Positions 75 through 15,083 of a DNA stretch of 31,636 bases are shown piece after piece (the stretch's first letter is position 1; every line of letters starts with the position of its first letter). This DNA is from a virus. The translations under genes were made by a program, and so were the position numbers. Where the stretch lies: IMG/VR virus record IMGVR_UViG_3300042260_000866, positions 1 to 31,636 of that record; one strand, written 5' to 3'. Below the pieces are notes generated by a model. The model was not told the origin of the DNA, made no database searches, and saw only the letters and a program-made list of their open reading frames with translations.

Positions 75-151
<77 letters not shown>

Positions 152-182: not shown

Positions 183-202
183 CGTCCCTCGGGGCGTTTT
201 TT
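183..202 (+). terminator. Rho-independent terminator after tRNA-fMet
   Basis: A short GC hairpin (CGTCC paired with GGGCG through one G-T pair, loop about four bases) is followed directly by six T residues, 30 bp downstream of the tRNA. It would end the tRNA transcript before the cargo region. Confidence 0.65.
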
Positions 203-217
203 GCGTTCCGAAATTTG

Positions 218-235
218 AGTCACCACCTAGTCACC
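218..235. repeat. Tandem AGTCACC repeat, possible integrase arm sites
   Basis: AGTCACC occurs at 218-224 and again at 229-235, an 11-bp spacing, close to one DNA turn. Short direct repeats at helical spacing beside a tRNA 3' end resemble the arm-type sites of tyrosine integrases. No integrase is present in the window to support this, so the assignment is inference from position and pattern. Confidence 0.35.
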
Positions 236-570: not shown

Positions 571-1518
571 ATGAAGTGTCTTGTTCTGGCCGCTGTGCTG
601 AGTTCCGTGCTCTTGGTCGGGTGCAAGGAAGACCCAGAACAGGCCGCGAACAAGCTGTTCGTGGAAGCAGCAACTTTGTTTGAAGAGTACCAAGCGTTGC
701 GTCCCGATAATCCGGCCCAGTATGAATCGCGGCTCAAGCTTTTGACACAGGTCGCAACTAACCTCGATTCAATTTTGGGCGACTACGCCGGAAGCTCACT
801 TGCGGTAGATCTGGCTTCAACTGGAAAAGCGAGGCAGCTAGTCAAGACAGAAATAGATGAGGACATTTTGCGCCTTCAGCAGAGTATCCCGGCTTCTGTG
901 CTGATGGCAGAAACGCTTCCGCTGTGGGAACAGTATAAAGCCCTGCCAGCAGAAGACCCTGCACAGTACGCAGCGCAGCTCAAGCTGTTAACGCAAGTCG
1001 ACGCCAATTTGGACCGGCTCCTGCATGAGTTTCCCGACAGCTATCAGGCCACGGGCCTCAGCATCAACGCCCAGCAGATCAAGGACGAGCTTCCGCGCCT
1101 TCAGCAGAGCATCCCGGCTTCTGTGCTGATGGCAGAAACGCTTCCGCTCTGGGAACAGTATAAAGCCCTGCCGACCTATGACCCTGCACAGTACGCAGCG
1201 CAGCTCAAGCTGTTGACGCAAGTCGACGCCAATTTGGACCGGCTCCTGCATGAGTTTCCCGACAGCTATCAGGCCATGAATCTCAGCATCAACCCCCAGT
1301 TCATTGAGCACGAGCTACCTCTTCTTCAGGGCCATGTAGGGATCGATAAAGCTATCTCTCTTGTAAATAGAGCGGAGGCTCAGTCATCGGCCGGCGATGT
1401 TGAAGGCGCGCGCTCTACGCTTTCAGAAGCGCTGAAAATCGCTCGTAGCGTTTCAGATTCTGATTTGCGCAGGCGCACTTTATCAGAAATATTAACGGCC
1501 TCCGCAAAGCTGAAATAG
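571..1518 (+). CDS. Repeat-containing putative lipoprotein, function unknown
   Basis: 315 residues. The N-terminus is a lipoprotein signal peptide: a short basic start, a hydrophobic stretch and a lipobox LVGC with the modified cysteine at residue 18. The mature part has three tandem units of about 75 residues (26-100, 101-175, 176-250); the last two are nearly identical at DNA level and the first is diverged. Each has a core like LWEQYKALPxxDPAQYAAQLKLLTQVDANLDRLL, given here only in outline, likely to form helical hairpins. A helical tail follows. A ribosome binding site AAAGGA at 558-563 supports the start. It is divergent from the phage genes and sits next to the attachment site, so it is probably prophage cargo that could alter the cell surface. 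No enzymatic motif is seen and the family was not recognised. Confidence 0.8.
   Translation: MKCLVLAAVLSSVLLVGCKEDPEQAANKLFVEAATLFEEYQALRPDNPAQYESRLKLLTQVATNLDSILGDYAGSSLAVDLASTGKARQLVKTEIDEDILRLQQSIPASVLMAETLPLWEQYKALPAEDPAQYAAQLKLLTQVDANLDRLLHEFPDSYQATGLSINAQQIKDELPRLQQSIPASVLMAETLPLWEQYKALPTYDPAQYAAQLKLLTQVDANLDRLLHEFPDSYQAMNLSINPQFIEHELPLLQGHVGIDKAISLVNRAEAQSSAGDVEGARSTLSEALKIARSVSDSDLRRRTLSEILTASAKLK
871..1320 (+). repeat. 225-bp tandem duplication inside the lipoprotein gene
   Basis: The unit 871-1095 recurs at 1096-1320 with a period of exactly 225 bp (75 codons), so the reading frame is kept. The first 170 or so bases of the two copies differ at only a few positions and the last part is more diverged. 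This indicates recent in-frame duplication and a site where copy number could change by slippage or recombination. Confidence 0.85.
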
Positions 1519-1752
1519 CAGGGATAGACTTGTCCCTTATTTGCGCCGCCCCAAGTGCTCGTTAGGCCACGTTCCGAGACGGATAGCCGAAAGCTTCGGT
1601 TAGCTAAGGCAATAGCGAAGGGCCGCGTTAGGGGGGGCGTCAACCGGGTCCGGATGACCGGTAACGGCCTAGCACGTCGTTGGCGGGACCGCGAGGAGCA
1701 AAGAGCCGGGGCAGCGGAGACAGCGGGAGAGCGGTCCCCCAAAGGTGGCAGG

Positions 1753-2733
1753 CTAAGTCGATCGTGGGGCCGTAGACAGAAAGAGAATGGGGGTTTCCGC
1801 CTCTTCATCGGCAATTTTGAGGAAAGCGCTCGGCTGCATGCCCTCGGATGAAAGATGCGCCACAAGATGCGGCACGCTCGCTGATTGAAGGCGGGCCTCC
1901 GAGAATATCGCTGAAACCTGCTTCGCGACTTCCAGTGGGTTCTTTGCCGCGCCAAGCCTTGAAACCAAAGCATCTGACGGCATTGCGATGCTCAACTCAC
2001 CGAATACTTTGACCTGATGAGCCGCCACATTCTTGGCTTCGTCGCCTTCGTCAAGCAGAAGCAGTGCCTTAACGCGGGTTGCGCCTGAGATCATCAATCC
2101 GTCAATGATGATCTGCAGGGCATCGAGCGGAATTTTCTCCATCCTAAGCAATGCCTTACCTCGCGACACGGAAGCCGTGAAGACATCATGAAGCACGGTT
2201 TCTGCTTCCTGCAAAACGCTACGTTGGTCGTTTCGGTTTCGTATACTGCCGACACGTTCTACGCGCGTCATGGCCTTGTCGAGAAGATCTTGCAGCTGCG
2301 TCGTGCGCCATTCCTCGCGAAATTCAGCTACCTCTTTGCCCAGTTTCTTGACGTCGTCTCGGAGCAAGTTGATACGGTGGCACACAATAGCGGCGCTGGC
2401 GGCTGAAATGCCAATCCCAACGACCGATGTTGCCAAGGTCGCCACTTGGAGGCCCTCGATCACACCAAGCATTTCCTGCATGGTGGCGAGGCGCTTTTTC
2501 ATCTGTTCAAGTTGAAAGGTATTTATCGTGCCCATACCAAACTCGGCGACCTTCAGGGCCGCCGACACCGGGTTTGCCATGCCGCTAACAGTTTGAGCAA
2601 ATCGAGCAGTTTCCTGGAGATGGCCAACAATTCGTCCGGCATTCGGGTCAATGATCAAGGCTCCACGCCTGACCAGTTTGCCCGCAGCAAGGAGCGCCTG
2701 ATATTTCGCGGGGATCATAAATTCATATGTCAC
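1753..2733 (-). CDS. Hypothetical protein with central hydrophobic segment (second of a two-gene unit)
   Basis: 326 residues starting at a GTG whose first bases overlap the stop of the preceding gene (GTGA); a GGAG lies 8 nt upstream. Residues about 95-120 form a small-residue hydrophobic stretch (LATSVVGIGISAASAAIV) that could insert in a membrane, flanked by charged helical segments with heptad character (MKKRLATMQEML before, LLRDDVKKLGKEVAEFREEW after). The rest is mainly helical, with no catalytic motif recognised. It is translationally coupled to the upstream gene and lies between the phage lysis genes and the tRNA. It is a candidate moron, superinfection-exclusion or defence protein, but that rests on location only. 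Confidence 0.75.
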   Translation of the reverse strand: MTYEFMIPAKYQALLAAGKLVRRGALIIDPNAGRIVGHLQETARFAQTVSGMANPVSAALKVAEFGMGTINTFQLEQMKKRLATMQEMLGVIEGLQVATLATSVVGIGISAASAAIVCHRINLLRDDVKKLGKEVAEFREEWRTTQLQDLLDKAMTRVERVGSIRNRNDQRSVLQEAETVLHDVFTASVSRGKALLRMEKIPLDALQIIIDGLMISGATRVKALLLLDEGDEAKNVAAHQVKVFGELSIAMPSDALVSRLGAAKNPLEVAKQVSAIFSEARLQSASVPHLVAHLSSEGMQPSAFLKIADEEAETPILFLSTAPRST

Positions 2734-3533
2734 AAAAATGACTCCAGACGGATATCACGCAGGGCGTCAAGCCGTGCAAGCTGACGAGATAAAACGGATT
2801 TTTCAGGATCATCGATTGCAGTCAACTTTTGCGAAATCCCGGCATTCAGAGCCTGCAGATACTCTGAGCGTTTTTGCCCTGAAACAGAATACGCCGACCA
2901 CGCCAAGCCTGCCACTCCGGCCGCGATTGTGATTGGTGCAGCCAATACACCAAGCCCGACTGCAGCCAAAGCTGCCGGAGCCACTCTGCTTCCAGCGATT
3001 GCTGCGCTTCCTGCAGATCCGCCGCCAACAATGAGCTTGCCAATGTCCCAGAAAGACCACCCAGCGTATTGGCTGACATTTGCGCCTTGACCGGATGGCA
3101 CGGTGTCTTGGCCTGTGCCTTTGACGGTTGCCATCAGGAACTTTTGGTCGAGTTTGTGGATCTCCTTGAAAATAGAGGCTTCAAGACTTTTCCGTTCGTC
3201 CGAGTCTTCCATCAGCAGATGGTGATGGGAAACATTTGCGGTCTCTTGCTTGGCGCGCTCGAACAACGTCTCTTGGAGGCCAAAACATGCTTGCGATGCT
3301 GCCAGTCGTTCGGCTTCCCACCAGTCAATAACCTCACTGTATCCGAACAGGCTGTCATTCATGGAAACATTGCTCGCATCGATTTTCCACATCCCGCTCA
3401 GAATTAGCTGAGAATACCCTTGCAGAACTTCATAACCCCAACAATACCCTTCCCGCCTTTGCCACACCAGGGGACCAAGATCGGTCCAAGCCACGCTCGA
3501 CGGCGGGTCAAATCGTCCAGTCAGGCTCGCCAC
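2730..3533 (-). CDS. Hypothetical protein with glycine/alanine-rich hydrophobic region (first of a two-gene unit)
   Basis: 267 residues if begun at the GTG at 3531-3533. The N-terminal half is rich in Trp and aromatic residues (WQRREGYCWGYEVLQGYSQ). A helical charged middle follows, then a long Gly/Ala-rich hydrophobic region around residues 165-215 (GGGSAGSAAIAGS, ALAAVGLGVLAAPITIAAGVAGLAW) suggesting one or two membrane-spanning hairpins, and a short helical C-terminus. Its stop overlaps the GTG of the next gene, so the two are probably made together. The frame stays open and protein-like upstream to about 3755 without a usable start, so the true gene probably began near 3715; see the next entry. 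Function not recognised. Confidence 0.65.
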   Translation of the reverse strand: MASLTGRFDPPSSVAWTDLGPLVWQRREGYCWGYEVLQGYSQLILSGMWKIDASNVSMNDSLFGYSEVIDWWEAERLAASQACFGLQETLFERAKQETANVSHHHLLMEDSDERKSLEASIFKEIHKLDQKFLMATVKGTGQDTVPSGQGANVSQYAGWSFWDIGKLIVGGGSAGSAAIAGSRVAPAALAAVGLGVLAAPITIAAGVAGLAWSAYSVSGQKRSEYLQALNAGISQKLTAIDDPEKSVLSRQLARLDALRDIRLESFL

Positions 3534-3715
3534 GGCCGCCTTGGCGGAGCGGACCGAAAATTCGACTGTGAAAACGCAGTCTCGGGACTTTTCAACAAAC
3601 TGCCCAAGAAAAGCAAAATTCTCCGCGCCATGGGGCCGGACATCTGGCCCGTCGCCGGGCCTTCTGGAAGCGAACTTGCTGGTGATCGAGGCCAGGCGAA
3701 CCTGGGCTTCGTCAT
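3534..3715 (-). other. Probable 5' coding extension of the 2730-3533 gene, separated by a frame break
   Basis: Reading upstream of 3533 in the same frame gives about 60 more protein-like residues (e.g. RPHGAENFAFLGQFVEKSRD, then VFTVEFSVRSAKAAVASLTG) but no ATG, GTG or TTG before the stop at 3756-3758. A good start, ATG at 3713-3715 preceded by AGGGGG at 7 nt, lies one base out of frame with this sequence. One inserted base within the first few codons (ATG ACG AAN GCC CAG) would join them into one protein of about 327 residues. I infer a single-base deletion or sequence error near 3708. Confidence 0.55.
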
Positions 3716-4016
3716 CTACGCACCCCCTGTTGCGTTCAGTCGTGTTCGTTAGGCATCAATCTCGCAAAGGCCCTGTTTGCTCTGCCACCTACGAAAGCGT
3801 CACGAAGCCAAGGTGCGGCTCCAGCGATCGCTTTCTTCGCCCCGCACCACTCAGATGATGTGGCAAATATGGATGTCAGCTGTGGAGAGGCTATACGGCT
3901 GCTCGAGACGGCAGCCGACCGGCAGCTTTGGGCCGAACGCGTCGATCGTCGGCGCGATTGCGATGTCCGGCCTGGATTCATGCAGGTCCGATACGCCTGC
4001 TCGACCAAGTTGTGCG
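3716..4016. other. Intergenic/decayed stretch between lysis genes and cargo unit
   Basis: No intact gene was recognised. On the minus strand, short protein-like stretches appear in different frames (PTIDAFGPKLPVGCRLEQP near 3900-3970, and KKAIAGAAPWLRDAFVGGR near 3770-3830), as a frameshifted remnant would give. They resemble no family I know. It marks the boundary between the phage late operon, which ends with Rz1 at 4017, and the cargo genes. Confidence 0.4.
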
Positions 4017-4229
4017 TCAATTCGTGCGACACCCTGCGTCCAAAATGGCAATCAGTGCTCGGCCCGATGTCACTGACTGGACCCCGCCATCGGCAGCTAG
4101 GGCGGCCGCATGCTGAGTCCTCGGCCCACTTGTCGCATCGCAGATCGCGTCACTTTGATGGAGGCCAGCGTCCTCGGGCGCGCAGCCACTCGCGGTCATC
4201 GTCAATATCATGATGGCCAATATCCGCAT
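4017..4229 (-). CDS. Rz1-like outer-membrane spanin lipoprotein
   Basis: 70 residues. The start MRILAIMILTMTASGCAPE has a lipoprotein signal with lipobox ending at Cys16, so the mature protein should be a small outer-membrane-anchored lipoprotein. The gene begins inside the 3' part of the Rz-like gene in another frame (80-bp overlap), the arrangement typical of Rz/Rz1 spanin pairs that fuse inner and outer membranes at the last step of lysis. The mature sequence (AICDATSGPR ... GRALIAILDAGC) resembles small lysis lipoproteins of Rhodobacteraceae phages, from memory. It is the last gene of the late operon. Confidence 0.7.
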   Translation of the reverse strand: MRILAIMILTMTASGCAPEDAGLHQSDAICDATSGPRTQHAAALAADGGVQSVTSGRALIAILDAGCRTN

Positions 4230-4419
4230 GGTCCATTCTCCTTCTTGCTTCGGCGGCCTGCCGCAAGTCCTTTATCGCCTGCTTGTCTCGTTCACGCCGT
4301 GCAGAGGCACGCCCTATCCCCATCAGGACAACCAAGATCCCTGCGATCATTGCCAAGGTCCCGAGCAGCGCCCGTCCGACCGTGCTCGCGCCAAGCCATC
4401 CCGCCAAAATGTTCATCAT
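4150..4419 (-). CDS. Rz-like inner-membrane spanin
   Basis: 89 residues with one membrane segment at about 15-36 (ALLGTLAMIAGILVVLMGIG), followed by a highly charged helical region (ARRERDKQAIKDLRQAAEAR) and a short tail ending near WLRARGR. This N-in, C-out layout with a periplasmic helix fits an i-spanin. The start codon overlaps the endolysin stop (TGATG), so the two are translationally coupled, and the Rz1-like gene starts within it. Confidence 0.7.
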   Translation of the reverse strand: MMNILAGWLGASTVGRALLGTLAMIAGILVVLMGIGRASARRERDKQAIKDLRQAAEARRRMDHADIGHHDIDDDREWLRARGRWPPSK

Positions 4420-5396
4420 CAGCGACCTATGTGTTTTCCTGAGCGGGCGTCATCGACACGAGCGTGTTTGATTTCGTTCAACAAATACCAGACCGATAGG
4501 CCGATGCCGGCGATGGCAAGGACCGGCCAAAGGGCACCAAACACACCCGTCGCACGGTCGAACAGATCACCTGCCTTTTCCATGGCGGCGATTGCGCCAT
4601 CTGCGCGTTCGAGGGCGATTGTGCCCCCGCCAAGCAACATGGCCGCGGTGGTTCCGGCCTGCGCGGTATCCGCGTTGCGGATCGTGCTGCTGCCGCGCGC
4701 GCGCAAAGTTGCCGCGTCGATGTCGCGCATCACGCGTGGCACCGCGGCCTGCAAAGCATCCCAGGTCTGGCCGCCAACAATGGCATCGCAGGGCAGGTTG
4801 TTATCCGCTTGGAACGCCAGCACGGCTTCGCGTGTTCTGGAACCGAACTGGGCGTCGATTGCACCTGCCGGATAGCCCAGCGCAGACAGTTGGTCTTGCA
4901 GATCGCGGACCGCGGCACCGTGTTGTCCCATGCGCAGGATCGGCCGGCCCGTTCCAGATGCCGAAACCGCCCTGCGGATCCCCAAGATCCGCGATGCAGG
5001 GTAGGGAGCGTCGCTCACACGGTTGCCCTGATTGCCACCGCGCAGGATTACCGCGTCGCCTTCAAACCCAAGAAGGAACGCAACATGGCCTTGCCAACCT
5101 TGGGGGCCGCCGCGCCATAAAATCACGACGTCGCCTGGTTTAGCCTCCGCCATGCCGACGGGTACACCCCATTCAAGGTATGACCGGGCATTCAAACGGC
5201 CGGTGTTGGGCAAGCCGAGTTCGGCCAAAACGGCTCCGACGAATGCCGCGCACCAAGAAGTTTCATCATCATGGATCTGCGGGTTGTCGGTTTTTCGGAA
5301 AAACTCGAGGACTGCAGGGTTTTGGCGCGCGCCTGGCCATTCCTCGATGCCAAGGTAGCGGCCGGCCGCCTCCAGAAGCGCTGGATTGTATTTCAT
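4419..5396 (-). CDS. Endolysin: CHAP/NlpC-P60-like peptidase with peptidoglycan-binding domain and C-terminal membrane anchor
   Basis: 325 residues. Residues 1-145 are a cysteine peptidase of the TIGR02594 kind, with Cys49 in SWCAAFV and His104 in WQGHVAF as likely catalytic pair, and the GGNQGN motif at 120-125. Residues about 151-215 match peptidoglycan-binding domain 1 (LRMGQHGAAVRDLQDQL ... FGSRTREAVLAFQ). A transmembrane helix lies at about 287-306 (ALWPVLAIAGIGLSVWYLL). It should cleave peptide bonds in peptidoglycan at lysis. The AAGGGA upstream of ATG supports the start. The C-terminal anchor is unusual compared with soluble lambda-type endolysins and may link it to holin or pinholin-style release. 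It is coupled to Rz downstream. Confidence 0.85.
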   Translation of the reverse strand: MKYNPALLEAAGRYLGIEEWPGARQNPAVLEFFRKTDNPQIHDDETSWCAAFVGAVLAELGLPNTGRLNARSYLEWGVPVGMAEAKPGDVVILWRGGPQGWQGHVAFLLGFEGDAVILRGGNQGNRVSDAPYPASRILGIRRAVSASGTGRPILRMGQHGAAVRDLQDQLSALGYPAGAIDAQFGSRTREAVLAFQADNNLPCDAIVGGQTWDALQAAVPRVMRDIDAATLRARGSSTIRNADTAQAGTTAAMLLGGGTIALERADGAIAAMEKAGDLFDRATGVFGALWPVLAIAGIGLSVWYLLNEIKHARVDDARSGKHIGR

Positions 5397-5418
5397 ATGG
5401 ATGTTCCCTTTTCACATG

Positions 5419-5440
5419 AAAAAGCCGCCACGGGGGCGGC
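5419..5440 (-). terminator. Rho-independent terminator upstream of endolysin
   Basis: On the minus strand GCCGCC, a five-base loop and GGCGGC are followed by TTTTT. It lies between the small membrane protein gene (stop 5467) and the endolysin start (5396). Efficient termination would stop the long tail/fibre transcript here, so lysis genes would need read-through, antitermination or their own promoter. Confidence 0.75.
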
Positions 5441-5466
5441 GTCGGATGGGGTGACTTTGGCAGGCT

Positions 5467-5733
5467 TCAATTGCCGGGGATTTTGCGATCCATCCGCTCC
5501 AAGGTGCGGCCGATGCCCACGATCGATTCCTCGATGCGCCCAAGCTGAATTGCCTGGGCCTGCGTGGCAGCGGCTTGATCTTCGACTTTGCGTTCGAGTT
5601 TGGCGATCTCCCTCTCGTTCAACTTGCTTTGATCCCGGGTTCTCGACAAAGCCACTTCAAGCCTCCCCCAAAGCCCCGCCAACCCCAGAAGCAGCGGCCA
5701 TACCGCCTGTATCGTTTCCCAGTCCGGCACCAT
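5467..5733 (-). CDS. Small membrane protein with coiled coil, possible holin-like or lysis accessory
   Basis: 88 residues. A hydrophobic segment lies at about 10-23 (AVWPLLLGLAGLWG), then a long charged helix with heptad-like spacing (LNEREIAKLERKVEDQ ... GIGRTLERMDRK). It resembles small DUF2730-like phage proteins with one N-terminal membrane helix and a coiled coil. Its start lies inside the 3' end of the radical SAM gene, with AAAGGGG 7 nt before the ATG. It precedes the endolysin and could be the holin or a tail-assembly accessory. No classical two- or three-TM holin is visible nearby. Confidence 0.65.
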   Translation of the reverse strand: MVPDWETIQAVWPLLLGLAGLWGRLEVALSRTRDQSKLNEREIAKLERKVEDQAAATQAQAIQLGRIEESIVGIGRTLERMDRKIPGN

Positions 5734-7000
5734 GAACTGCCCCTTTCTTGTTTACTTTGATGGGTTCCGCCTTGAGAGCGACGGCCGTTACGCCGATCAC
5801 CACCGCCCCGGTTAGATGGAAAATGGCCGCCATAAATATCCCGAAGTTAAACGCAAACTCATTCGCACAACTCTGCTTAAAGAACTCACCCTCAAGGAAC
5901 ATGCAGGCCCCCTTGCAGAGTTGAACAACGGGACAGGACATACACTCGGCACGGAAGGCAAAATGCGTGGCCGTATTGAGCGCAATCTCGTCAAACTCAG
6001 CCACATGGCCAATTTTGTGCATGCCCTTGGCCCCGGTGTTCTGACAGGTCATGACATTGCCCTGAAGATCGACAGCGAGGTGCTCGGGCCGGTCCATGGC
6101 GCATTTCTGGCTGAGGGCAGAGATCGGCCGCCGGGTTTTCAGGGAGGTGATAAAGTCACGAAGGCGGGTGTCGAGCCCGAAGCCCTGGGGGTCGGTGACG
6201 AGGCTTTCAAACACCACGCGACGCAAAGCATGGAGATCTGCCGCTTCAAACCGCCCTGGCCCCAAAAGGGTTGCGGTATCATAGATATCCACCACGCCTT
6301 CAACCGAAAGCGGCACATCTGGCCCCAACCGTTCTTGGAACCATGCCCTGATCGCGCCAAGGTCATAGTTCTGAACGGTCAGAACGGTGTTGATGCCAAC
6401 GTGACCTTTTCGCTCAGAAAGCAGCGCCTCGATCCAGCGCCGCTGCTCGGGGTTCTCGAGCGGGTCTGGCCCGCGCTGATCTTGGCCGGGCCCATCATGA
6501 CTGAGACCAATGTCGATGCCATAGCGGTGAATGAGATCGAGCTTCTCACGATCAAGAAGCGAGCCATTGGTGATGATCAGGAACCGTGCCGACGGGAACC
6601 GGTCTGCCAGCGCCGGGATCAGGCGCTTCAACTTGGCCCAATAGACAAAGGGCTCGCCTCCCCAAATCTCGATCCGCTCCGGCGCGCCCTGAAGCCAACT
6701 GTCAAGGTTTGCCAGAAACTCGTCGACGTCACTGAGCCTGGAGAGCGTCGCATCCCCAATCTGGCTGGCCTGGCTGCAATAGGAACAGCTGTAATTGCAG
6801 GACAGGCCCAACTGGATTTTGAGAACCTTTGGGGCGCGGGATTTACCCAAGGGCGCGGCCTTCGAGACGCGGGGAGCATCCTGCCAATCCCGCTCCGTAA
6901 TGGGGCCAATGTCGATCCCTTCGATCTTTGAGGTATGCGGGTCGTAACGGATCTCGCGACGGCTGCCGTCGCGCGCTTCAAGGGTCAGGATAAATCCCAT
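5657..7000 (-). CDS. Radical SAM/SPASM peptide-modifying enzyme
   Basis: 447 residues. The radical SAM CxxxCxxC motif is C68-NYS-C72-SY-C75, with the SAM-binding GGEP at 114-117. A complete SPASM domain follows: C300, then GxxxxC ending at C319, then C353xxC356 x5 C362 x3 C366, and C378, enough for two auxiliary [4Fe-4S] clusters. SPASM proteins include sulfatase-maturing enzymes and RiPP maturases that form thioether, C-C or epimerised residues on peptides. The start overlaps the upstream oxygenase stop (TGATG). The last 25 or so residues overlap the next gene and are Gly/Ala-rich, possibly a dispensable tail. The substrate is inferred to be the Cys-tailed protein at 7625-7885. The protein is cytoplasmic. 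The family is near certain, the substrate uncertain. Confidence 0.93.
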   Translation of the reverse strand: MGFILTLEARDGSRREIRYDPHTSKIEGIDIGPITERDWQDAPRVSKAAPLGKSRAPKVLKIQLGLSCNYSCSYCSQASQIGDATLSRLSDVDEFLANLDSWLQGAPERIEIWGGEPFVYWAKLKRLIPALADRFPSARFLIITNGSLLDREKLDLIHRYGIDIGLSHDGPGQDQRGPDPLENPEQRRWIEALLSERKGHVGINTVLTVQNYDLGAIRAWFQERLGPDVPLSVEGVVDIYDTATLLGPGRFEAADLHALRRVVFESLVTDPQGFGLDTRLRDFITSLKTRRPISALSQKCAMDRPEHLAVDLQGNVMTCQNTGAKGMHKIGHVAEFDEIALNTATHFAFRAECMSCPVVQLCKGACMFLEGEFFKQSCANEFAFNFGIFMAAIFHLTGAVVIGVTAVALKAEPIKVNKKGAVHGAGLGNDTGGMAAASGVGGALGEA

Positions 7001-7614
7001 CAGTCAAACCATTCTTCTTGGAGATGCTCCGGGATCGTGACCCGGAAGTTCATGACGATCTGGATATGTGTGGCCTCGCCCCGATAGGGATGCTGGTTAT
7101 GCGGGATCCAGGAGGGGAAGATCACCAGAAGCCCCGGTCGGGGGTTCACGCTAAAGGCCGACCGGCTTTCAAATGGAAGCCGCGGCTGATCGGCATAGCG
7201 GCTCGGGTCTTCAAGGCAAAAGCGCGGATTGCCTACCGAATTGATTGGCTGACCCGCCCCGCTCCCTGAGAGGAACAAGACCGCCGTCACATCGCCTTCG
7301 CGACTGTCGGCATGTGTGTTGATGAAGGCGCGATCCTCAATGAGAAGCGCGCGGTTCTCGCAGTAGGTGGGATCAAGGAAGGCGGCCCCCGGCCCAAGAT
7401 AATCGCCCACGCAATCGCGCACGGTCGCCAAAAGCCCCGGCGCCTCCGCCATAATACCCCGGACCCGCCGTTCCGCCGCACTCCGCCCCACCTGTGGCGG
7501 CCGCCACGCGCGGTCATAAAGCGCCTGAAGCTGCCCGGCGGCCTCGTCTGCCTCAAGCTGGTAAAAGCCAACCCGCGTGGGCCAAAGCTCAGCAATCTGC
7601 CGTTGAACCTGCAT
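7000..7614 (-). CDS. Putative 2OG-Fe(II) oxygenase B
   Basis: 204 residues. The double-stranded beta-helix signature of Fe(II)/2-oxoglutarate oxygenases is present: H101-A-D103 as the first two iron ligands, and H172 in the FPSWIPHNQHP motif as the third, like phage 2OG-FeII_Oxy_5-type proteins. The position where 2-oxoglutarate-binding Arg is expected, about 11 residues after the distal His, is His183, with Arg178 nearby; activity or cosubstrate use may differ. A GAGGG lies before the ATG, 10 bp after the Cys-tail gene, and the stop is coupled to the radical SAM gene. Likely a hydroxylase of a peptide or protein side chain in the same pathway; the target is inferred only from neighbourhood. 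Confidence 0.8.
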   Translation of the reverse strand: MQVQRQIAELWPTRVGFYQLEADEAAGQLQALYDRAWRPPQVGRSAAERRVRGIMAEAPGLLATVRDCVGDYLGPGAAFLDPTYCENRALLIEDRAFINTHADSREGDVTAVLFLSGSGAGQPINSVGNPRFCLEDPSRYADQPRLPFESRSAFSVNPRPGLLVIFPSWIPHNQHPYRGEATHIQIVMNFRVTIPEHLQEEWFD

Positions 7615-7624
7615 GCGCGCGCCC

Positions 7625-7885
7625 TCAGCAATAGCACTGACAGTTGCAGTTCGTGGCAGGCTGATATGTGCGCAGGTAAATATCGTGATACGTCATATCA
7701 CTTTGGAACTCGAGGCCGATGAAGGTGGTCGAGACGAGGTTCCCACTTCCGCTAACCTTATACTCGGTCGCCGTCTTGGAATATTCGCCAGCCGCCAAGC
7801 CGGCCGCCGGCGCCCCAGAGATCCGCGCCCAAGGCACAGAGCCCGTATCATCAATGACGATGGTGGTTCCGACCTTATAGGCCAT
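7625..7885 (-). CDS. Small fibre-like protein with C-terminal C-x-C-x-C-x-C, candidate modification substrate
   Basis: 86 residues. The start MAYKVGTTIVIDDTGSVPWA resembles N-termini and repeats of phage tail-fibre proteins (TTVIDDxxxxxWxxISG). The middle is beta-prone and Gly/Ser/Thr-rich. The only cysteines are C80, C82, C84 and C86, alternating with N, Q and Y, so the protein ends on Cys. Its ribosome binding site (GGAGGAG, 6 nt before ATG) is the strongest in the cassette, as expected for a substrate or structural protein needed in more copies than the enzymes. It lies between two oxygenase genes (11-bp overlap upstream, 10-bp gap downstream) and before a SPASM enzyme. Inference: a virion tip peptide whose Cys tail is modified. 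Unmodified metal or Fe-S binding is the main alternative. Confidence 0.8.
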   Translation of the reverse strand: MAYKVGTTIVIDDTGSVPWARISGAPAAGLAAGEYSKTATEYKVSGSGNLVSTTFIGLEFQSDMTYHDIYLRTYQPATNCNCQCYC

Positions 7886-8570
7886 GGTGCTCTCCTCCGA
7901 TGTCTAAAGGGGTTTGGGCATTGGGAAGCCGCAAGGTGACCTGCAGCGGCAGGCAAACGCGGCGGTGCCCCTCAAAGGGCGCGGAATCATGGGGGACATG
8001 CCCCTCGAAGATGACCATTGTCCCGGTGCGGGGCCGCACATCGAACCAACTGCCGGTGAAGATCGCGGTGTTTCTATTCGGCCAAAGCCGATGGCCACGC
8101 CCCCCCGGGTCGTAAAACCGCAAGGCCCCCTCGCGATAGGGCTGCGGCCCGGCGGGGCCGAAGGTGACCTCCGGGTAATAAGTCACCACAAAATCCGCGC
8201 GCGGATGGCTATGGGTAAAGATGCCGATTGTCTCCCCACCACTGTCGCCTTGCACGAAGGGTTCGGCGATGGCGTCGATCCTTTCCGGCAGATCCGCGCC
8301 ATATGCCCGTTGCAGATATTCGGCGAGACCCGTGCGCGCGGCAGAAAGCCAGGCCTCAACGACAGACTCCCCGCGATACTCGGCCAGAAGATTATGCCGG
8401 ATATGGCCAAAGGGGCTGTCGGCCGTTCCCAGATTGCGCGGATCCGCATCATCGACCACGCGGTGGCCTGCGGCATCCGCAACGGCGATCTCGGCCAAAC
8501 GCTGGTTAAGATCTGCGCTGAGAAGGCCATGCTTCACCAGCACAAAGCTCGGATAAAGGGCGGTGAACAT
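7875..8570 (-). CDS. Putative 2OG-Fe(II) oxygenase A
   Basis: 231 residues. The motif FTHSHPRADFVVTYYP (H120, H122, D126) matches the NxHxHPxxxxSGVYYV-type region of phage 2OG-Fe(II) oxygenases. The distal motif FEGHVPHDSAPFEGHRRVCL supplies H191/H194 and Arg203 or Arg204 for 2-oxoglutarate. A loop GRGHRLWPNRN between them fits the family's substrate-side region. It shares only motif-level similarity with oxygenase B. Its last 11 bases overlap the start of the Cys-tail protein gene, so both are probably translated together. Expected cytoplasmic hydroxylase acting on a peptide/protein; substrate unknown. Confidence 0.8.
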   Translation of the reverse strand: MFTALYPSFVLVKHGLLSADLNQRLAEIAVADAAGHRVVDDADPRNLGTADSPFGHIRHNLLAEYRGESVVEAWLSAARTGLAEYLQRAYGADLPERIDAIAEPFVQGDSGGETIGIFTHSHPRADFVVTYYPEVTFGPAGPQPYREGALRFYDPGGRGHRLWPNRNTAIFTGSWFDVRPRTGTMVIFEGHVPHDSAPFEGHRRVCLPLQVTLRLPNAQTPLDIGGEHHGL

Positions 8571-8581
8571 CAGACCGCCTC

Positions 8582-9469
8582 TCAGACCACAGCCACATCA
8601 ACGCGCCCGACGGCGGTGTAATGGTCGGTGTTGATCTTGATGGAGAGAGTATCGCCCGCGCGAAGGCCTAAAGCGCAAGCCCGGATCACGGCCCGCCCTT
8701 CGGCATCGGTCACCACGCGGGTCTGCGCAACATAACCGGACAGGGCCTCGAGTTTCAGGTGAGTGCTGTGGGCAAGCGGCGTGCCGTCGGCGTTTTCGGC
8801 GAGGTGGAGGGGGATTTCGATCCAAGCTTCGGGGGAGACGGTGAGATCTTCTGGCAACCGCACCGACCAATAGAACCTGAGATAGCCACGCCCATCGCTT
8901 GTTGCCTCCTCGGGACCGAGGAGGACAGGATCAGCCGTGCCGCCAAAGCCAAAGACCTGCAAATTGGGCAGGATGATGCGGCAGTCATGGAAACTGCCCG
9001 TGGCAATCGGCATCCAGACATAGCACGCAATCTGACTGCCACGCTTGGCCCGGTTGCGCTGACCAAATTCGTTTTTGTCCCAACGCGAGGTGATCAGCCG
9101 ATTGTCCCAAGTGGCGAGCATCCCCGCCCTATCCACCGGCACCTCAAACCGGCTGAAGTCGACCACCTCATCGGCCCCCTTCAGATCCGCAAGGTCGAAG
9201 ATCACATGGCTGCAATAGGCCAATAGCGTTCCCGGGGCACTCGGATCTTCAATCGCATGGGCCTCATAGAAGACCTCAGGCGTGCCTGCCCGAGAGGGGC
9301 GGTCCAGAAGTGTCGCCGCCAAAGCATCAAGGGCCAAGATGACGGGACGCTCCAGCCGATCGATCGGCTTGAAGGCAACAAGCGTCAGCCGGGTGGCGCT
9401 GAGATTGACCCCAATGGTGAGAGGGCTTGCATGCCCCAAGTGATAAAGCCCTGTGTCAGCCGCGCGCAT
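8582..9469 (-). CDS. Putative tail-fibre-associated protein with C-terminal Ig-like domain
   Basis: 295 residues, no enzyme motif. The N-terminal 200 residues are beta-rich and aromatic (AYCSHVIFDLADL, TWDNRLITSRWDKNEFGQ, CRIILPNLQVFGFGG), as in phage tip or adhesin proteins. Residues about 205-295 look like a bacterial Ig-like domain (IEIPLHLAENADGTPL ... GYVAQTRVVTDAEGRAVIR ... GDTLSIKINTDHYT). The gene overlaps the end of the S74 fibre gene by 14 bp and ends 11 bp before oxygenase A, so it belongs to the fibre/modification cassette. It may be the structural partner or carrier of the Cys-tailed peptide. The family was not recognised. Confidence 0.7.
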   Translation of the reverse strand: MRAADTGLYHLGHASPLTIGVNLSATRLTLVAFKPIDRLERPVILALDALAATLLDRPSRAGTPEVFYEAHAIEDPSAPGTLLAYCSHVIFDLADLKGADEVVDFSRFEVPVDRAGMLATWDNRLITSRWDKNEFGQRNRAKRGSQIACYVWMPIATGSFHDCRIILPNLQVFGFGGTADPVLLGPEEATSDGRGYLRFYWSVRLPEDLTVSPEAWIEIPLHLAENADGTPLAHSTHLKLEALSGYVAQTRVVTDAEGRAVIRACALGLRAGDTLSIKINTDHYTAVGRVDVAVV

Positions 9470-10058
9470 GCGGGCCCTCCTTTAGCTGATTGACCTGGAG
9501 GCTCAGGTCCTTGAAGGCCTCGACGAGGAGGCCAATGAGATTGCCATAGGCGAGGCGCAGCACCCCCTCGGTTTCGACCACGGCCTCCGGCGCCACGGCC
9601 TGAACTTCCTGGGCGATGAGACCCATTTGCCGCGTCTCGCTGCCTGCCATAGTGAAGGTGACACCGGTGAGGGCTTGGACCTTGGCCAGCGCATCCGCGA
9701 TGGGCGCGATGTCGGATTTGAGCCGCGCGTCGGACGAGGAGACGAAGTTCGGCGCCGTGACCGTGCCTGTGAATGTCGCCCCGGACAGCAAGGCAAAGGC
9801 GCTGGCATGGTTGCCATCAAGAAGATCGGCATCAAGACCTGAGCCCGGCCCATCTTGCGCGGTGATCTTGGCAAAGATCTGCGCGTCCGTCAGCGCAGCC
9901 GAGGTGACATCGACAATGCTTTCGACGCCGCTCGCGCTTTTCTTAAGGTAGAGCTTGCCGTCGGTGACATTCACCGCAAGTTCGCCGGCCGCGAGCTGCG
10001 CGGTTGTCGGCACCCGGCCGGCGACGGTTGTGCGTTTGACAAGAAGCGTATTGGCCAT
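9456..10058 (-). CDS. Tail fibre with C-terminal S74 intramolecular chaperone
   Basis: 200 residues. The N-terminus is a fibre-type start (ANTLLVKRTTVAGRVPTTAQ, then LAAGELAVNVTDGKLYLK), followed by linker sequence with LDADLLDGNHAS. From about residue 108 comes the peptidase S74/endosialidase-chaperone domain: SSDARLKSDI with the self-cleavage serine region, then QMGLIAQEVQAVAPEAV and RLAYGNLIGLLVEAFK ending in a coiled coil. This domain drives trimerisation and then cuts itself off. It is paralogous to the C-terminus of the protein at 11878-12534. Confidence 0.85.
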   Translation of the reverse strand: MANTLLVKRTTVAGRVPTTAQLAAGELAVNVTDGKLYLKKSASGVESIVDVTSAALTDAQIFAKITAQDGPGSGLDADLLDGNHASAFALLSGATFTGTVTAPNFVSSSDARLKSDIAPIADALAKVQALTGVTFTMAGSETRQMGLIAQEVQAVAPEAVVETEGVLRLAYGNLIGLLVEAFKDLSLQVNQLKEGPHARG

Positions 10059-10061
10059 GGC

Positions 10062-11306
10062 TCAGAACGTGCCCCCATCAAGGGCAATGCCATCAATCGT
10101 GCCCCCGGTGATCGCGACGCTGTTCGCGGCTTGCGTGGCGATCGAGCCAAGCCCGAGATTTGTGCGCGCGGTCGCCTTGTTCGGCAGATCAGCAAGGTTT
10201 GAGGCGGCGACAAGCTTGCCTGCCAGTGCATTGGTGACGGTGGTCGCAAAACTCGGGTCATCGCCAAGGGCGGCCGCCAATTCGTTCAGCGTGTCGAGCG
10301 CACCCGGGGCCGCATCAATCAGCGCCCCGATGGCCGTAGCCACAAAACCCGTGGTTGCCACTTGCGTGGAGTTGGTGCCCGCAACTGCCGTGGGGGCCGT
10401 CGGTGTGCCGGTCAGCGCCGGCGAAGCAAGCGGCGCCTTGGCATCGAGTGCAGCTTGCAGCCCCGTCACATCACTCACGGTATGCGCGTGCACCGAGGGT
10501 GGAAAGCTCGTGGGTTTGCCAGTGATCCCCGCCCAAGGTGCTGCATCCGCCACCTCTGCCGCATCGACCTTGCCATCATTGTCGGCATCATAGCTGGATT
10601 TGAGCATATCGCCGGGGCCAAAGGCGACGATCGCGGCTTGCACAAAGGCCGTCGTCGCCACTTGGGTCGTGTTCGTGCCTGCGATTGCGGTCGGCGCAGA
10701 GGGCGTTCCGGTCATCGCGGGCGAGGCCAGCGGCGCCTTGGCATCAAGCGCTGCCTGCAAGCCATCGACGTTGGCAATCACATGGGCATGGCTGTCGTCG
10801 ACGACAGCGGCGGTGATCGTCACATTGGCAGAGCCGTCAAAACTGACCGAGCCTGTGAGGTCGCCCGCCAGGGTGATGCTGCGCGCCGTGGCCAGCTTGC
10901 TTGCCGAAACCGCCGTGGCCGTTGCGCCAAGCTTTCCATCAAGCGCCGTCTGCAGCCCCGTCACATCGGCGATCGCATGGGTATGGGCAAGTGCAGCTTT
11001 GGTGGCGAGTCCCGCATCCATCTGCGATTTGCGCACGAGATCGTTGGCAGCACTCGCGTCCTGCGAAGATTTTGGGACAAGCGTGAAGGTCTTGGCGCCG
11101 GCAATGGTCTGCGCACCCGCCAGATCAACCAAGGCCCCCTTGCCGGCTAGCGGAACAATCGAGGTGGCATTGCCGCCGCCATCATCACCCTTGCCGACGT
11201 AAAGCGTGTCATCGACTTCATTATGGGCAAGTTCGCCCGACTTGAGGGCGGCCGGCGCCCCGGCCACCCCTGAGACGCGGCGTTTAAGCTGGATCGTATT
11301 CGCCAT
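10062..11306 (-). CDS. Repeat tail-fibre protein
   Basis: 414 residues from ATG at 11304-11306; GGAGG lies 9 nt upstream and the start overlaps the preceding stop (TGATG). An out-of-frame-looking upstream extension was discarded because it reads antisense-like Arg/Pro-rich sequence. The N-terminus (ANTIQLKRRVSGVAGAPAAL) matches fibre starts. The body has phage fibre repeats with HAHxxxDVxGLQAALDAKAP LASPxxTGTP-type units, two copies 300 bp apart and a third partial copy. Residues around 220-232 form a calcium-loop-like DADNDGKVDAAE. The C-terminal part (NLADLPNKATARTNLGLG) is a known fibre-type motif. Expected trimeric receptor-contacting fibre; no chaperone domain of its own. Confidence 0.88.
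   Translation of the reverse strand: MANTIQLKRRVSGVAGAPAALKSGELAHNEVDDTLYVGKGDDGGGNATSIVPLAGKGALVDLAGAQTIAGAKTFTLVPKSSQDASAANDLVRKSQMDAGLATKAALAHTHAIADVTGLQTALDGKLGATATAVSASKLATARSITLAGDLTGSVSFDGSANVTITAAVVDDSHAHVIANVDGLQAALDAKAPLASPAMTGTPSAPTAIAGTNTTQVATTAFVQAAIVAFGPGDMLKSSYDADNDGKVDAAEVADAAPWAGITGKPTSFPPSVHAHTVSDVTGLQAALDAKAPLASPALTGTPTAPTAVAGTNSTQVATTGFVATAIGALIDAAPGALDTLNELAAALGDDPSFATTVTNALAGKLVAASNLADLPNKATARTNLGLGSIATQAANSVAITGGTIDGIALDGGTF
10330..10790 (-). repeat. Two 160-bp fibre repeats with 300-bp period
   Basis: 10330-10490 and 10630-10790 align base for base at an offset of exactly 300 bp. They encode the same fibre unit (GLQAALDAKAPLASP followed by TGTP and GTNxTQVATTxFV). In-frame duplication within the fibre gene; such repeats allow recombination between fibre genes. 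Confidence 0.8.
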
Positions 11307-11533
11307 CAGAAAAATCCTCCATTGATCGGCGCGTCGGTGGGCAGGATCGTGACACCGGGCACGCCTTGATCGCCCTTGTCGCCCTGCGGGCCTTGTTTTC
11401 CGCCTGGTCCAGGGCTGCCATGGATGCGGACCGTCATCGGCCCGTTCCGCACTCTGGTGATGACCGGATAAGACGCGGTGACCCAAATTCTGATCGGGCC
11501 GGTTCGCACCTTGGCCGCGAGCACTGTCGGCAT
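11306..11533 (-). CDS. Short collagen-like tail-fibre protein
   Basis: 75 residues. The middle to C-terminal part carries about seven Gly-X-Y triplets (GSPGPGGKQGPQGDKGDQ, continuing to GVPG), a collagen-like stretch as found in phage fibre proteins that trimerise. The N-terminal 40 residues are beta-prone (IRIWVTASYPVITRVRNGPM). It begins 3 bp after the preceding gene and its stop overlaps the start of the repeat fibre (TGATG), so it may be assembled with that fibre. Confidence 0.75.
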   Translation of the reverse strand: MPTVLAAKVRTGPIRIWVTASYPVITRVRNGPMTVRIHGSPGPGGKQGPQGDKGDQGVPGVTILPTDAPINGGFF

Positions 11534-11536
11534 GGA

Positions 11537-11881
11537 TCAAAGCCCTCGTGTGACAGGCTGCTGAACCGGGATTTCGACGATGAACCCAAGATGGCGATCA
11601 GGCGCAAGATCTGTGCGAACGACATCGATCACCACACTTCCGACCGAAAGTGCACCCGTGATCTCAGGTCCCAAGACGATCTCAAGTGTTCGGTCATCTT
11701 CGCGGACCAGGGTTCCGGTCTCCGTCGAAAGGCTGGCCAACAAACGCTCGGACCCGACGGAGGCGCGGATTTGCGCGACCAGCCGGCAGCCTGTCGGAAA
11801 CTGTGGGGAGTCCGTTCCAAGCCGCAGCCGGTATTCGTAGCCAATCAATATAATCGGCCCTTCAGAAACCATGGTGGTCAT
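11537..11881 (-). CDS. Tail/baseplate protein with BppU-N-like beta domain
   Basis: 114 residues, mostly beta strands. The pattern (GYEYRLRLGTDSPQFPTGCR, then LVAQIRASVGSERLL, and GSVVIDVVRTDL) resembles the N-terminal Ig-like domain of phage baseplate/upper-fin proteins that describe a polar property with lower and upper limits. It overlaps the end of the S74 fibre gene by four bases and precedes the collagen-like gene. Likely structural component at the tail tip; assignment by pattern only. Confidence 0.6.
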   Translation of the reverse strand: MTTMVSEGPIILIGYEYRLRLGTDSPQFPTGCRLVAQIRASVGSERLLASLSTETGTLVREDDRTLEIVLGPEITGALSVGSVVIDVVRTDLAPDRHLGFIVEIPVQQPVTRGL

Positions 11882-12534
11882 GCCCGTTCCTCTTCAAGCC
11901 GGGCGATCCGGGCGCTCAGCTCTTTCACCGCCTCGATCAGAACGCCGGCAATGTTGCCGTAGGCGATCGACAGCATACCGCTGTCATCGGCGCGTACGAT
12001 TTCAGGCAAAACTTCCAGAACCTCTTGAGCGACAAGGCCAAGTTGTTGATGGCCGTTCATGGTGAAACGGACGCCGCGCAGGGCGCAAACAAGGTCGACG
12101 GCACCAGCGATGGTCTCAATGTCCGACTTTAGCCGGCGGTCTGAGCTCGACACGAAGTCGGTCGCAGAAACCAAGCCGGTGAAGGCAGCCCCGCTCAGGT
12201 TGGCTTTTGCCGCAAGTGTGCTGTCATAGGCCGCTGCGGATTGCGTCGCCATTGTGCCGAGCCCGAGATTTGCCCTGGCGACGGCATTATTTGCCAGGCC
12301 GGACAGGTTACCAGCGCTATCGAGCAAAGCATCCCAGCCGGTATTGTTCACATTTCTGCGGCGCAGTGCCGGCGGCGAAACCGAAGTGTCCATCCACAAC
12401 ATGCCCGCCACCGTTGGGTTTGGCGCGCTGCCTCCAGCATTCATCGATTGCAGGGCGGCAAACACCTCGTTGATCCGCGCACGCACGGCCGCACCGGCGC
12501 CATTTGCTATGACAAAATTTGACGTCTGAGCCAT
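11878..12534 (-). CDS. Tail fibre with C-terminal S74 intramolecular chaperone
   Basis: 218 residues. The N-terminal half is fibre-like (RINEVFAALQSMNAGGSAPN, then WMDTSVSPPALRRRN, and NAVARANLGLGTMATQSA). From about 125 an S74 domain begins: SSDRRLKSDIETIAGAVD, then QLGLVAQEVLEVLPEIV and SIAYGNIAGVLIEAVKELS, ending in a short coiled coil. Self-cleaving trimerisation chaperone. Its start overlaps the stop of the J-like gene (TGATG), placing it as the first fibre gene after the tip. Confidence 0.85.
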   Translation of the reverse strand: MAQTSNFVIANGAGAAVRARINEVFAALQSMNAGGSAPNPTVAGMLWMDTSVSPPALRRRNVNNTGWDALLDSAGNLSGLANNAVARANLGLGTMATQSAAAYDSTLAAKANLSGAAFTGLVSATDFVSSSDRRLKSDIETIAGAVDLVCALRGVRFTMNGHQQLGLVAQEVLEVLPEIVRADDSGMLSIAYGNIAGVLIEAVKELSARIARLEEERA

Positions 12535-15083
12535 CAGGCAACCTCATCGGCATAGATACGAAGCTGGGTGACGATCGGCGTGTAAGAGGCGTCCTTCGTG
12601 GTCAGATAGGCCCGTGCCTGAACGCCCCGCGCCTCGATTTCATGTGTGTCCAACCGCCCCCAGGGGCCCCAATTCGGCGCGCCGTTTGGATCGTCATCGG
12701 TCTCGCGCATCTCGAACAGCACATCGATTTCTGCACCGACCGAGCCGTCGAAATCCTCCCAGGCGTCGATAAGGGCCGTGCGGGCATCCACGCTGTCATT
12801 CAGGGCCAATGCCGCGACGCCAATGTCAGAACGCAGACGCACGCGTTTGACGGCACCAAGATCGAGCCCAGCGCCAAACTCGTAGAGGCCCTGCAAGGCG
12901 GTGACTTGTGTCACGCCGGCCCCATTCGTGGCCGTCGGCAGTTGAAGGTTTCCACTGGAAACCACCAAGTTAGTCTTGGTGCCGGGGAAGGTAGAATCCG
13001 CCTGCAAAAATCCCAGCAATGAGAAGGCGATGACCTGCGCGCCTTTGGTCGATACGCGGGTTTCTGGCCCAGCGCGGCCCCCACTGTCCTCGGCGCGCAA
13101 CAAGTAGGTACCAGGTTTCAGCGGAACGACGGCAATCGCCTCGCTGCCGGAAACGCGATCCATCGAATAGCTATCAGCCCAAGTCGCCTCGGCTTCTTTG
13201 GAATGGCGGATAACAATGTTGCCGCCCACACGCACATCCGGATCGGCCGCACGGGTCCACTTCAAGATGGCCAGGCCACCCGCCGTTTGCACGGTTACGC
13301 CCTGCAATTGCGCCGGTGGGGCGGTCAACCCTACCACCTCCACTGAGGATTGACGCCAAGCAGATGAGACGCCCAGCACCGATACCGCTTTCACCCGGAA
13401 ATCCCAATTGCCGGGGGCGATGTCGCGGATCTCAAAGGTGGTGCCGTCAGTGCGCCCGTAGTCCTTCCAGGTGGCATCGGTTGCGAGTTTTGCCTCCAAC
13501 CGATAGTCGGCGATGAAGCCGGAAGGGGCAGCGGCCCAATTCACCCGTGCCAAAACTTTCAGGCCGCCGCCATCGCGGGTCACATAAAGGTCTTCAGTAA
13601 CTTCAGGTTCGCCAGGTGGTGGAACATCGAAGGCAGACGGCAACATGGTGCGCGGGGCTGCCGCATAGATTTGTTCTTCAGAAGCGGCCCAGTCGTAGAT
13701 CAGCGGTGAGGTTTCGCGCAGCAACAACTCAGGAAGCAGCAATGCACCATCCCCGGCGGCTGCGATGTCCAAGCTTACCCCATGAACCTCAAACGGCTTT
13801 TCGGCAAAACCCCAGCGGTCATATGATAGGGTGATGGTGTCACCAACCGTGGCGCGCCAGGCGGCCAGTTTGCCAGAAAGACGCACCGACATTTGCCGAC
13901 GCACCCGTTCCAGTTCAATCTTGGCAAGCCTTTGCGCCATGGTCGCAGAAATCGTAAAGGGTAGCGATATGTCGCTCCATTTGCGTTCGCCCCCATCCTC
14001 GGCAAGATAGACATCACTGGCGACAGCGGGAAAATCGTCGGGTTGCCAGTCATTGTCCGGGCTGACGAACTGGCCGCGAACGCCGTTGAAATTCGATGAC
14101 ATTGTCACCCGCGTGGCGAGCGTCATGCCGCCCACACGAACATCGTCAGAGGTAAGCGACACGGTGGCCGCGCGCCAAGCCCCGGCATGGATGCGCCAGG
14201 TCCCGGCTGAGTAGGCGCAGCGCCCGGCAAAAGCCGATAGCATCCCCTCGATAATGGTCTTGGGGGCCTCCGAGAGCGAGATCACGCCATTGCAGCTATA
14301 GCGCGGTTCGGTTCCGCCTGTGCGGAGGTTGACGGTTTCGTCACAAATGTTGGCTGCCTCAACCAGGCTGAGGCTGTCGATCCCATCGATACCGCCGGTG
14401 CTGGCACCGACACCCCAAAGCGGGTTTGCCATGAAATCAGCAAGGCAAAGGGCTGCGTTTTCTGAGTAGCCAAAGGTTGCCGTGCGTGGGTCATAGATGT
14501 CGTTCTTGCCCTCGATGTCGACGGTGATATTGGGGATACCGCCTGGAAACGCATCCTGGTCGTAGGTCAGCCGTAGCCTAATTGCCGCACATCCGCGTAA
14601 CCGATGAGCCTCTGTCCATTTATCCGGTAGAGCCGAGCGAAGTCCGGGAAAGGGCGTTTGGCTGGGGCTGCCCAAGGCCTTCTCGATGGTGACCTTTCCT
14701 GCCCATCGTCCTTGCGCTACGCCGACCGCATTCACCGCCACCTCGGACTCAAAGTATATAGCCCCGATGGATTTCACCTGATGCGCGGCCAGCACCACGA
14801 CCAAATCCAGATCTCGGTTATCTGCCCCCGATGAGTGTAAGAATACGATCACGCCGCCTTTGCGCGCCCGGCCATAGACCAGATCGCGGGGCATGACAGG
14901 CTCGCGCACCGTGACGTTTCTGGCCTGCATTTGCACTTTCGGCTTCGGCATTAATGCGGAAGCTGCTGCCGAAATCAAAAGCGTTCCGCCAATCCGCAGA
15001 AGGGCTGCCCCAATGCCACCCGCTGCCAATGTCGCACCTACCCATCCCGCAACTGCGGTGACGGCTGTGACAATGAACGGCAT
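12534..15083 (-). CDS. Tail tip/host specificity protein (lambda gpJ-like)
   Basis: 849 residues. The N-terminal 45 residues are hydrophobic and Gly/Ala-rich. A conserved tip region follows (VREPVMPRDLVYGRARKGG, ENAALCLADFMANPLWGVGA, GVRGQFVSPDNDWQPDDFP), the putative phage tail (PF13550-like) core, then two fibronectin-III-like stretches (about 490-670: VKAVSVLGVSSAW, LRAEDSGGRAGPETRV), and a beta-rich C-terminus (WEDFDGSVGAEIDVLFEMR). The protein forms the tail tip that contacts the receptor and carries the fibres. Position after the K-like gene and before the fibres is as in lambda. Shorter than lambda J (about 1130 residues). Confidence 0.9.
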   Translation of the reverse strand: MPFIVTAVTAVAGWVGATLAAGGIGAALLRIGGTLLISAAASALMPKPKVQMQARNVTVREPVMPRDLVYGRARKGGVIVFLHSSGADNRDLDLVVVLAAHQVKSIGAIYFESEVAVNAVGVAQGRWAGKVTIEKALGSPSQTPFPGLRSALPDKWTEAHRLRGCAAIRLRLTYDQDAFPGGIPNITVDIEGKNDIYDPRTATFGYSENAALCLADFMANPLWGVGASTGGIDGIDSLSLVEAANICDETVNLRTGGTEPRYSCNGVISLSEAPKTIIEGMLSAFAGRCAYSAGTWRIHAGAWRAATVSLTSDDVRVGGMTLATRVTMSSNFNGVRGQFVSPDNDWQPDDFPAVASDVYLAEDGGERKWSDISLPFTISATMAQRLAKIELERVRRQMSVRLSGKLAAWRATVGDTITLSYDRWGFAEKPFEVHGVSLDIAAAGDGALLLPELLLRETSPLIYDWAASEEQIYAAAPRTMLPSAFDVPPPGEPEVTEDLYVTRDGGGLKVLARVNWAAAPSGFIADYRLEAKLATDATWKDYGRTDGTTFEIRDIAPGNWDFRVKAVSVLGVSSAWRQSSVEVVGLTAPPAQLQGVTVQTAGGLAILKWTRAADPDVRVGGNIVIRHSKEAEATWADSYSMDRVSGSEAIAVVPLKPGTYLLRAEDSGGRAGPETRVSTKGAQVIAFSLLGFLQADSTFPGTKTNLVVSSGNLQLPTATNGAGVTQVTALQGLYEFGAGLDLGAVKRVRLRSDIGVAALALNDSVDARTALIDAWEDFDGSVGAEIDVLFEMRETDDDPNGAPNWGPWGRLDTHEIEARGVQARAYLTTKDASYTPIVTQLRIYADEVA

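Follow-up and report, generated by a model that had tools for sequence, protein, structure and literature searches.

The known substrates of radical-SAM maturases are small peptides and a few enzymes, and none of these maturases was found reported as dedicated to a structural protein of the virion. The described systems that come closest to the locus analysed here are the maturases of the CteB/SCIFF-ranthipeptide group, of which CteB forms thioethers, and anSME, a SPASM enzyme that acts on Cys of a full-length protein. On the phage side there is the family PHROG_1802, which includes proteins of the Achromobacter phages JWF and 2-1 and is annotated merely as "radical SAM domain-containing protein". 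With regard to fibres, the needle of T4 gp37 holds HxH iron sites, and because alternate side chains of such a trimer point inward, thiolate metal sites are also conceivable.

The window (the whole stretch of DNA that was analysed, a virus record of 31.6 kb) carries its tail module on the minus strand, and inside this module lies a small gene whose product ends in ...QPATNCNCQCYC*, with four Cys among its last seven residues. The reading favoured here, and held with reasonable though not high confidence, is that the gene belongs to a tail-tip cassette, in which the radical-SAM enzyme encoded alongside would modify the alternating Cys of a displayed fibre tip.

The Cys-tail gene and its cassette

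The features of the cassette are listed in Table 1. In the order of transcription, the partner protein and oxygenase B lie upstream of the Cys-tail gene, and oxygenase A and the radical-SAM enzyme lie downstream of it. The window also encodes an S74 fibre, at 9456-10058.

Table 1. Position and supporting evidence of the cassette features, in window coordinates.
Feature	Position	Strand	Evidence
Radical-SAM/SPASM enzyme, 447 aa, presumed maturase	5657..7000	-	PF04055 2e-11; PHROG_1802 3e-53; AlphaFold model, pLDDT 90.3
SPASM cysteines C300, C319, C353, C356, C362, C366, C378	5867..6103	-	alignment
CX3CX2C radical-SAM cluster motif (C68, C72, C75)	6776..6799	-	alignment
2OG-Fe(II) oxygenase A, HxD/E...H kept	7000..7614	-	PF13759 1e-6, above cutoff; alignment
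Cys-tail fibre-like protein, presumed substrate	7625..7885	-	86 aa, ATG start
C-terminal tail NCNCQCYC, residues 79-86	7628..7651	-	sequence; terminal CxCxCxC kept in relatives
2OG-Fe(II) oxygenase B	7875..8570	-	PF13759 8e-5, below cutoff; PHROG_81 3e-10; alignment
Shine-Dalgarno GGAGGAG of the Cys-tail gene	7892..7898	-	within end of oxygenase gene
Partner protein, C-terminal Ig-like (intimin-type) domain	8582..9469	-	recurs beside tail gene in many cassettes

As an earlier note on this DNA had pointed out, and as the translated reading frame confirms, Cys occurs in the small protein only at positions 80, 82, 84 and 86, the last of which is the C-terminal residue. The same note regarded its ribosome binding site as the best of the cassette; GGAGGAG is a good site, but the gene at 8582-9469, with AAAGGAGG, has one that is at least equal. 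The Cys-tail protein of the window has no match in Pfam or NCBIfam and a single one in PHROG (E 0.16), and tblastn of its sequence against phage isolates returned weak matches only, to Prochlorococcus and marine phages. Over the 74 codons that could be compared with the closest relative (L002), 24 differences are synonymous and 13 non-synonymous, with most codon changes in the third position; this bias rules out an artefact of the coding frame and indicates that the frame evolves under constraint as a coding sequence.

In viral contigs, the protein as query retrieved 28 loci, of which 23 have the start MAYKVGTTIV and a readable end, two run off the contig edge and three are only partly related. 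The terminal C-x-C-x-C run is present in all 23, in the forms NCNC[N/A]CRC, NCNCNC[A/N]CRC or NCNCNCDCQCYC, and each of these proteins begins with the fibre-like MAYKVG[TS]TIVI. The middle of the protein varies in length and sequence; the Cys tail is thus kept while the rest of the protein changes, as had been anticipated. The gene order is kept as well (Ig-like protein, oxygenase, Cys protein, oxygenase, radical-SAM enzyme). Loci that retain the enzymes and lack the Cys tail were sought, and none were seen among the close relatives, whose tail-less radical-SAM genes are 5'-truncated or lie at contig ends; only in distant relatives of Ramlibacter/Variovorax type, apparently chromosomal ones, is the small peptide encoded upstream a different one.

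The fibre-like nature of the protein, another claim of the earlier note, gained support from two sides: the module MAYKVGTTxVxxD heads a Gly-rich protein of 296 aa, directly behind a fibre-type sequence of the S74 kind, in another virus (L029), and in other cassettes the same tail is carried by proteins of PHROG tail-fibre families. The view that the protein is a substrate rather than an enzyme was also counted as supported. The gene at 8582-9469, in turn, had been grouped with the fibre proteins at 8582-12534, and this has to be revised, given that its product, an Ig-like protein, accompanies the cassette repeatedly and cannot be called a simple fibre. The closest fold match of its C-terminal domain, to intimin Ig domains, is weak, and the other matches of the protein among PDB and viral folds are mostly unspecific. 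Both oxygenases retain the iron triad HxD/E...H when relatives are aligned (HAD/HKD/HTE...PHN in A, and THSHPRAD-type...PHD in B). Outside the tail module, positions 571-1518 of the window hold an open reading frame for a predicted lipoprotein-like protein of 315 aa, with a MKCLVLAAVLSSVLLVGC start and a repeated segment of about 70 aa.

The comparison of window positions 4419-15083 with a near-identical phage (L018/L158) shows how the cassette behaves as a unit. The tail genes are 92-98% identical and the two genes behind the cassette 94-100%, and the five cassette genes, taken in order, are identical at 28% (Ig-like protein), 42%, 36% (Cys protein), 53% and 68% (radical-SAM enzyme), so that all five have diverged together. 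Such an en bloc exchange of the five genes is what one sees when modules for receptor binding are swapped.

The radical-SAM/SPASM enzyme

The three Cys of the CX3CX2C motif are invariant in 50 sequences, and so is the complete SPASM pattern CX9-15GX4C...CX2CX5CX3C...C, in which C300, G314 and C319 form the first part, C353, C356, C362 and C366 the second, and C378 the last. The model of the enzyme has the fold of the peptide-modifying members of the superfamily, and its best matches among solved structures are CteB (Z 24.0, 358 residues aligned), ChlB (21.8), anSME (21.5) and TigE (18.4), which are or include peptide-modifying enzymes. The enzyme reaches the cutoff of no curated maturase family. 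With the CteB/SCIFF maturases it has in common the fold, the cluster architecture and the adjoining gene for a Cys-rich candidate substrate, but this candidate, instead of being a SCIFF peptide, is of phage-fibre type and has an xCxCxC run at its C-terminus, the score for TIGR03974 is 28.7 bits against a cutoff of 425, and the phage enzyme has no clear RRE. The first 50 residues of the model form three strands and no helices, which makes a classical recognition domain not evident in the predicted structure. At the other end, residues 411-447 (window 5657-5770) are a Gly/Ala-rich extension of about 37 residues, modelled with low confidence and absent from most relatives.

The enzyme belongs to the same family as the proteins of PHROG_1802, at whose loci the neighbouring fibre also bears an NCNC tail and a Hint domain, although no oxygenase was detected by profile at the loci of JWF and 2-1. 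The carrier in JWF, annotated as a Hint protein, was confirmed as such (PF05203 above cutoff) and has a segment of shufflon type; the fibre reads ...NCNCDCNCNCSCFPAGT..., and the radical-SAM gene (36% identity) is found two genes downstream. Radical-SAM matches in Campylobacter and Thermus phages were set aside, because their similarity is weak or extends over a small part of the query. Two loci in Magnetospirillum-type genomes (L133 and L136) have two tandem radical-SAM genes of the enzyme's family.

Linkage of the tail to the enzyme and the proteins that carry it

The association was evaluated with a query built from an alignment of ten radical-SAM proteins, never from the Cys protein, in genomes and viruses. 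The two scans gave 113 and 456 relatives, and the best 80 of each were used; clustering at 80% identity, with 3 kb of upstream sequence required, left 61 clusters, a few members of which came from the earlier tail-based searches. What was scored was a run of (xC)3+ close to the C-terminal end of a protein or immediately followed by a Hint domain, on the same strand and at most 3.6 kb upstream. Such a tail is present in 53 of the 61 clusters, as opposed to 3 of 44 control stretches downstream and 4 of 51 further upstream (Fisher p about 1e-17), which rules out a chance origin of the pairing. The opposite strand gave 12 of 61, and in these matches the motif itself is probably being read in antisense, because AACTGC repeats give SCSC in reverse. 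In 46 of the 53 the tail stands at the C-terminus or a few residues from it, and in the other 7 it runs into a Hint domain. Seen as RiPP clusters, 53 of the 61 have a putative precursor gene near the presumed maturase gene.

The number of Cys per tail varies in a repeat-like manner. The residues that alternate with them had been expected to vary, and this holds only in part: Asn accounts for 132 of the 249 residues counted in these clusters, Asp and Ala for 41 each and all others for 35, a strong bias. The tail-less enzyme loci are mainly of Ramlibacter/Variovorax type, together with L153, L155 and L184. In the former (L091, L093-L095, L097 and L108) a small peptide without an NCNC tail (..SDCGCFISPMPEPKKG..) lies just upstream of the enzyme gene, and from their sequences these loci look like a chromosomal sister system of RiPP-like character; distant relatives of the enzyme are located directly downstream of small peptides resembling RiPP precursors.

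The other genes of the cassette are less constant. By profile, oxygenases are absent from 35 of the 61 clusters, present once in 17 and twice in 9, which means that the central proposal does not depend on them, and relatives of the Ig-like partner occur in 36 of the 61, usually adjoining the tail gene. Since both counts vary, the constant core is the tail plus the radical-SAM enzyme. A prophage with the cassette is also present in a cultured marine lysogen, Thalassobacter stenotrophicus CECT 5294 (L083, L084 and L088).

The search from the opposite direction, with the DNA pattern for NCNC[NTDA]C, for the most part picked up short frames due to chance. Long open reading frames that end in the motif and have enough flanking DNA nearly always have a radical-SAM gene close by; the exceptions are two short fragments (L300 and L312) and L281, in which a tail gene and an Ig-like partner are present and no radical-SAM gene lies within 3.9 kb downstream. 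Recurrent frames of 16 aa reading ..TCGNCNCTCRC (L036, L037, L053, L067, L068 and L070) were set aside and not counted as tail genes, because they are open for 16 codons only and have no cassette gene nearby. In L281 (positions 1-4820), the fibre has an NCNCNCK tail, and the open reading frames that follow it have His-rich motifs that, by eye and with no Pfam match, resemble membrane desaturases.

Most carriers of the tail are tail fibres whose architectures are unrelated to one another. Nine of the ten that were tested match tail-fibre families of PHROG, and among the carriers there is one with collagen repeats and one with a Hint domain. Small carriers are sometimes clustered: in Rhodoplanes tepidamans (L092, 7182-7978) three tandem Cys-tail genes, with an N-terminus of the same kind as that of the window protein, directly precede the radical-SAM gene, and in a viral contig of 230 kb (L229, 5504-6425) three consecutive open reading frames of about 100 aa each have an NCNC-type end. 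A Hint domain (CFPAGT..) that follows the Cys run directly or almost directly is seen in L033, L034, L126, L139, L143, L147, L199, L210, L256 and L300. The way in which the run leads into this domain suggests self-cleavage, which would expose the tail.

What the alternating cysteines may be for

The presence of the tail beside a dedicated radical-SAM enzyme in many unrelated phages makes it probable, as far as gene content can tell, that phages with this pair alter their own tail-fibre tips chemically. The locus of the window would be a swappable cassette that produces a fibre-type protein whose alternating-Cys C-terminus serves as the substrate of the radical-SAM/SPASM enzyme. The enzyme would most likely add Cys-derived modifications to the fibre protein, either nascent or already folded, with thioether cross-links as the favoured chemistry, given that the nearest solved relative, CteB, makes thioethers and that it is Cys that stays constant; the outcome may also be a different one. 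Hydroxylation, in the tail itself or elsewhere in the fibre, is the probable task of the two 2OG-Fe(II) oxygenases, and the residues hit could be the Asn or Asp that alternate with Cys; side chains of Asn and Asp are typical targets of this oxygenase superfamily. The modified tail would then be on display where the fibre ends distally, and may stabilise the tip or contact the host surface.

The main rival to the modification of the tail is that the Cys remain unmodified and bind metal at a three-fold fibre tip, the enzymes acting on something else. The carriers are fibre proteins, the strict spacing of one residue suits a strand along the axis and the number of Cys varies like a repeat, all of which fit such a tip. 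The distal end of T4 gp37 offers a parallel, in that residues of metal-ligand type alternate there as well, but the residues are His and not Cys, the dedicated radical-SAM enzyme is a feature of the present system, and the likeness is put forward as a functional analogy. Metal binding does not need the bias towards Asn, Asp and Ala and leaves unexplained why a radical-SAM enzyme should stand beside the tail on unrelated fibres, and for these reasons it is considered improbable, though it is the best placed of the alternatives.

It could also be thought that the Cys protein is a RiPP-type peptide of the lysogen, a bacteriocin or a signal, and not part of the virion. The small size of the protein in the window's group, the three tandem copies in Rhodoplanes and the peptide-maturase neighbour agree with this, but in other cassettes fibres of about 180-615 aa have this tail at their end, the gene lies within the tail module and no gene of the cassette looks like one for a leader protease or an exporter, which makes this interpretation quite unlikely. 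A slightly smaller chance is given to the oxidation of the tail Cys to formylglycine in the manner of anSME, which would create a row of aldehydes able to react with the host surface. It is true that anSME is among the best matches in both sequence and structure and that its substrates can be Cys. The Asp beside a SPASM Cys of anSME (CDFY) has a catalytic role, and in the phage enzyme family it is replaced by a nearly invariant Gln (CQN), which speaks against the formation of formylglycine; moreover, no sulfatase accompanies the phage enzyme, a CxPxR-type sulfatase motif is absent and the score for TIGR03942 is 35.3 bits against a cutoff of 349.45. The least probable proposal, to which very little weight is given, is that the tail is an anchor or a handle for disulfide cross-links between fibre chains, with the enzymes modifying other fibre residues or the Ig-like partner: repeated Cys could form disulfides outside the cell and the partner does recur beside the tail gene, but the radical-SAM association and the Hint fusions directly after the Cys run are left unexplained.

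In the literature on Hint or radical-SAM proteins with tail fibres, alternating cysteine and phage RiPPs, nothing was found on the cassette, which is weak evidence of absence given that open-licence PMC papers were covered, and the papers on phiCbK and phage Lumi deal with other matters. As far as could be found in these papers, the chemical modification by a phage of its own tail-fibre tips is, provisionally, undescribed. Beyond the modification of the tail in this cassette, a wider proposal can be put forward tentatively, as one that could well turn out otherwise: in tailed phages of many bacteria, a virus-encoded radical-SAM system might turn (Asn/Asp/Ala-Cys)n tails on otherwise unrelated fibres into RiPP-like modified adsorption tips, a general class whose Hint-fused versions would expose the tail by self-cleavage. 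If a radical-SAM maturase is indeed dedicated to a virion protein, phages recognise their hosts with a chemistry wider than that of the 20 amino acids, many of their genomes carry ready-made pairs of enzyme and substrate in which the substrate is an unusually simple repeat, and the role of the large phage radical-SAM family PHROG_1802 becomes a testable question.
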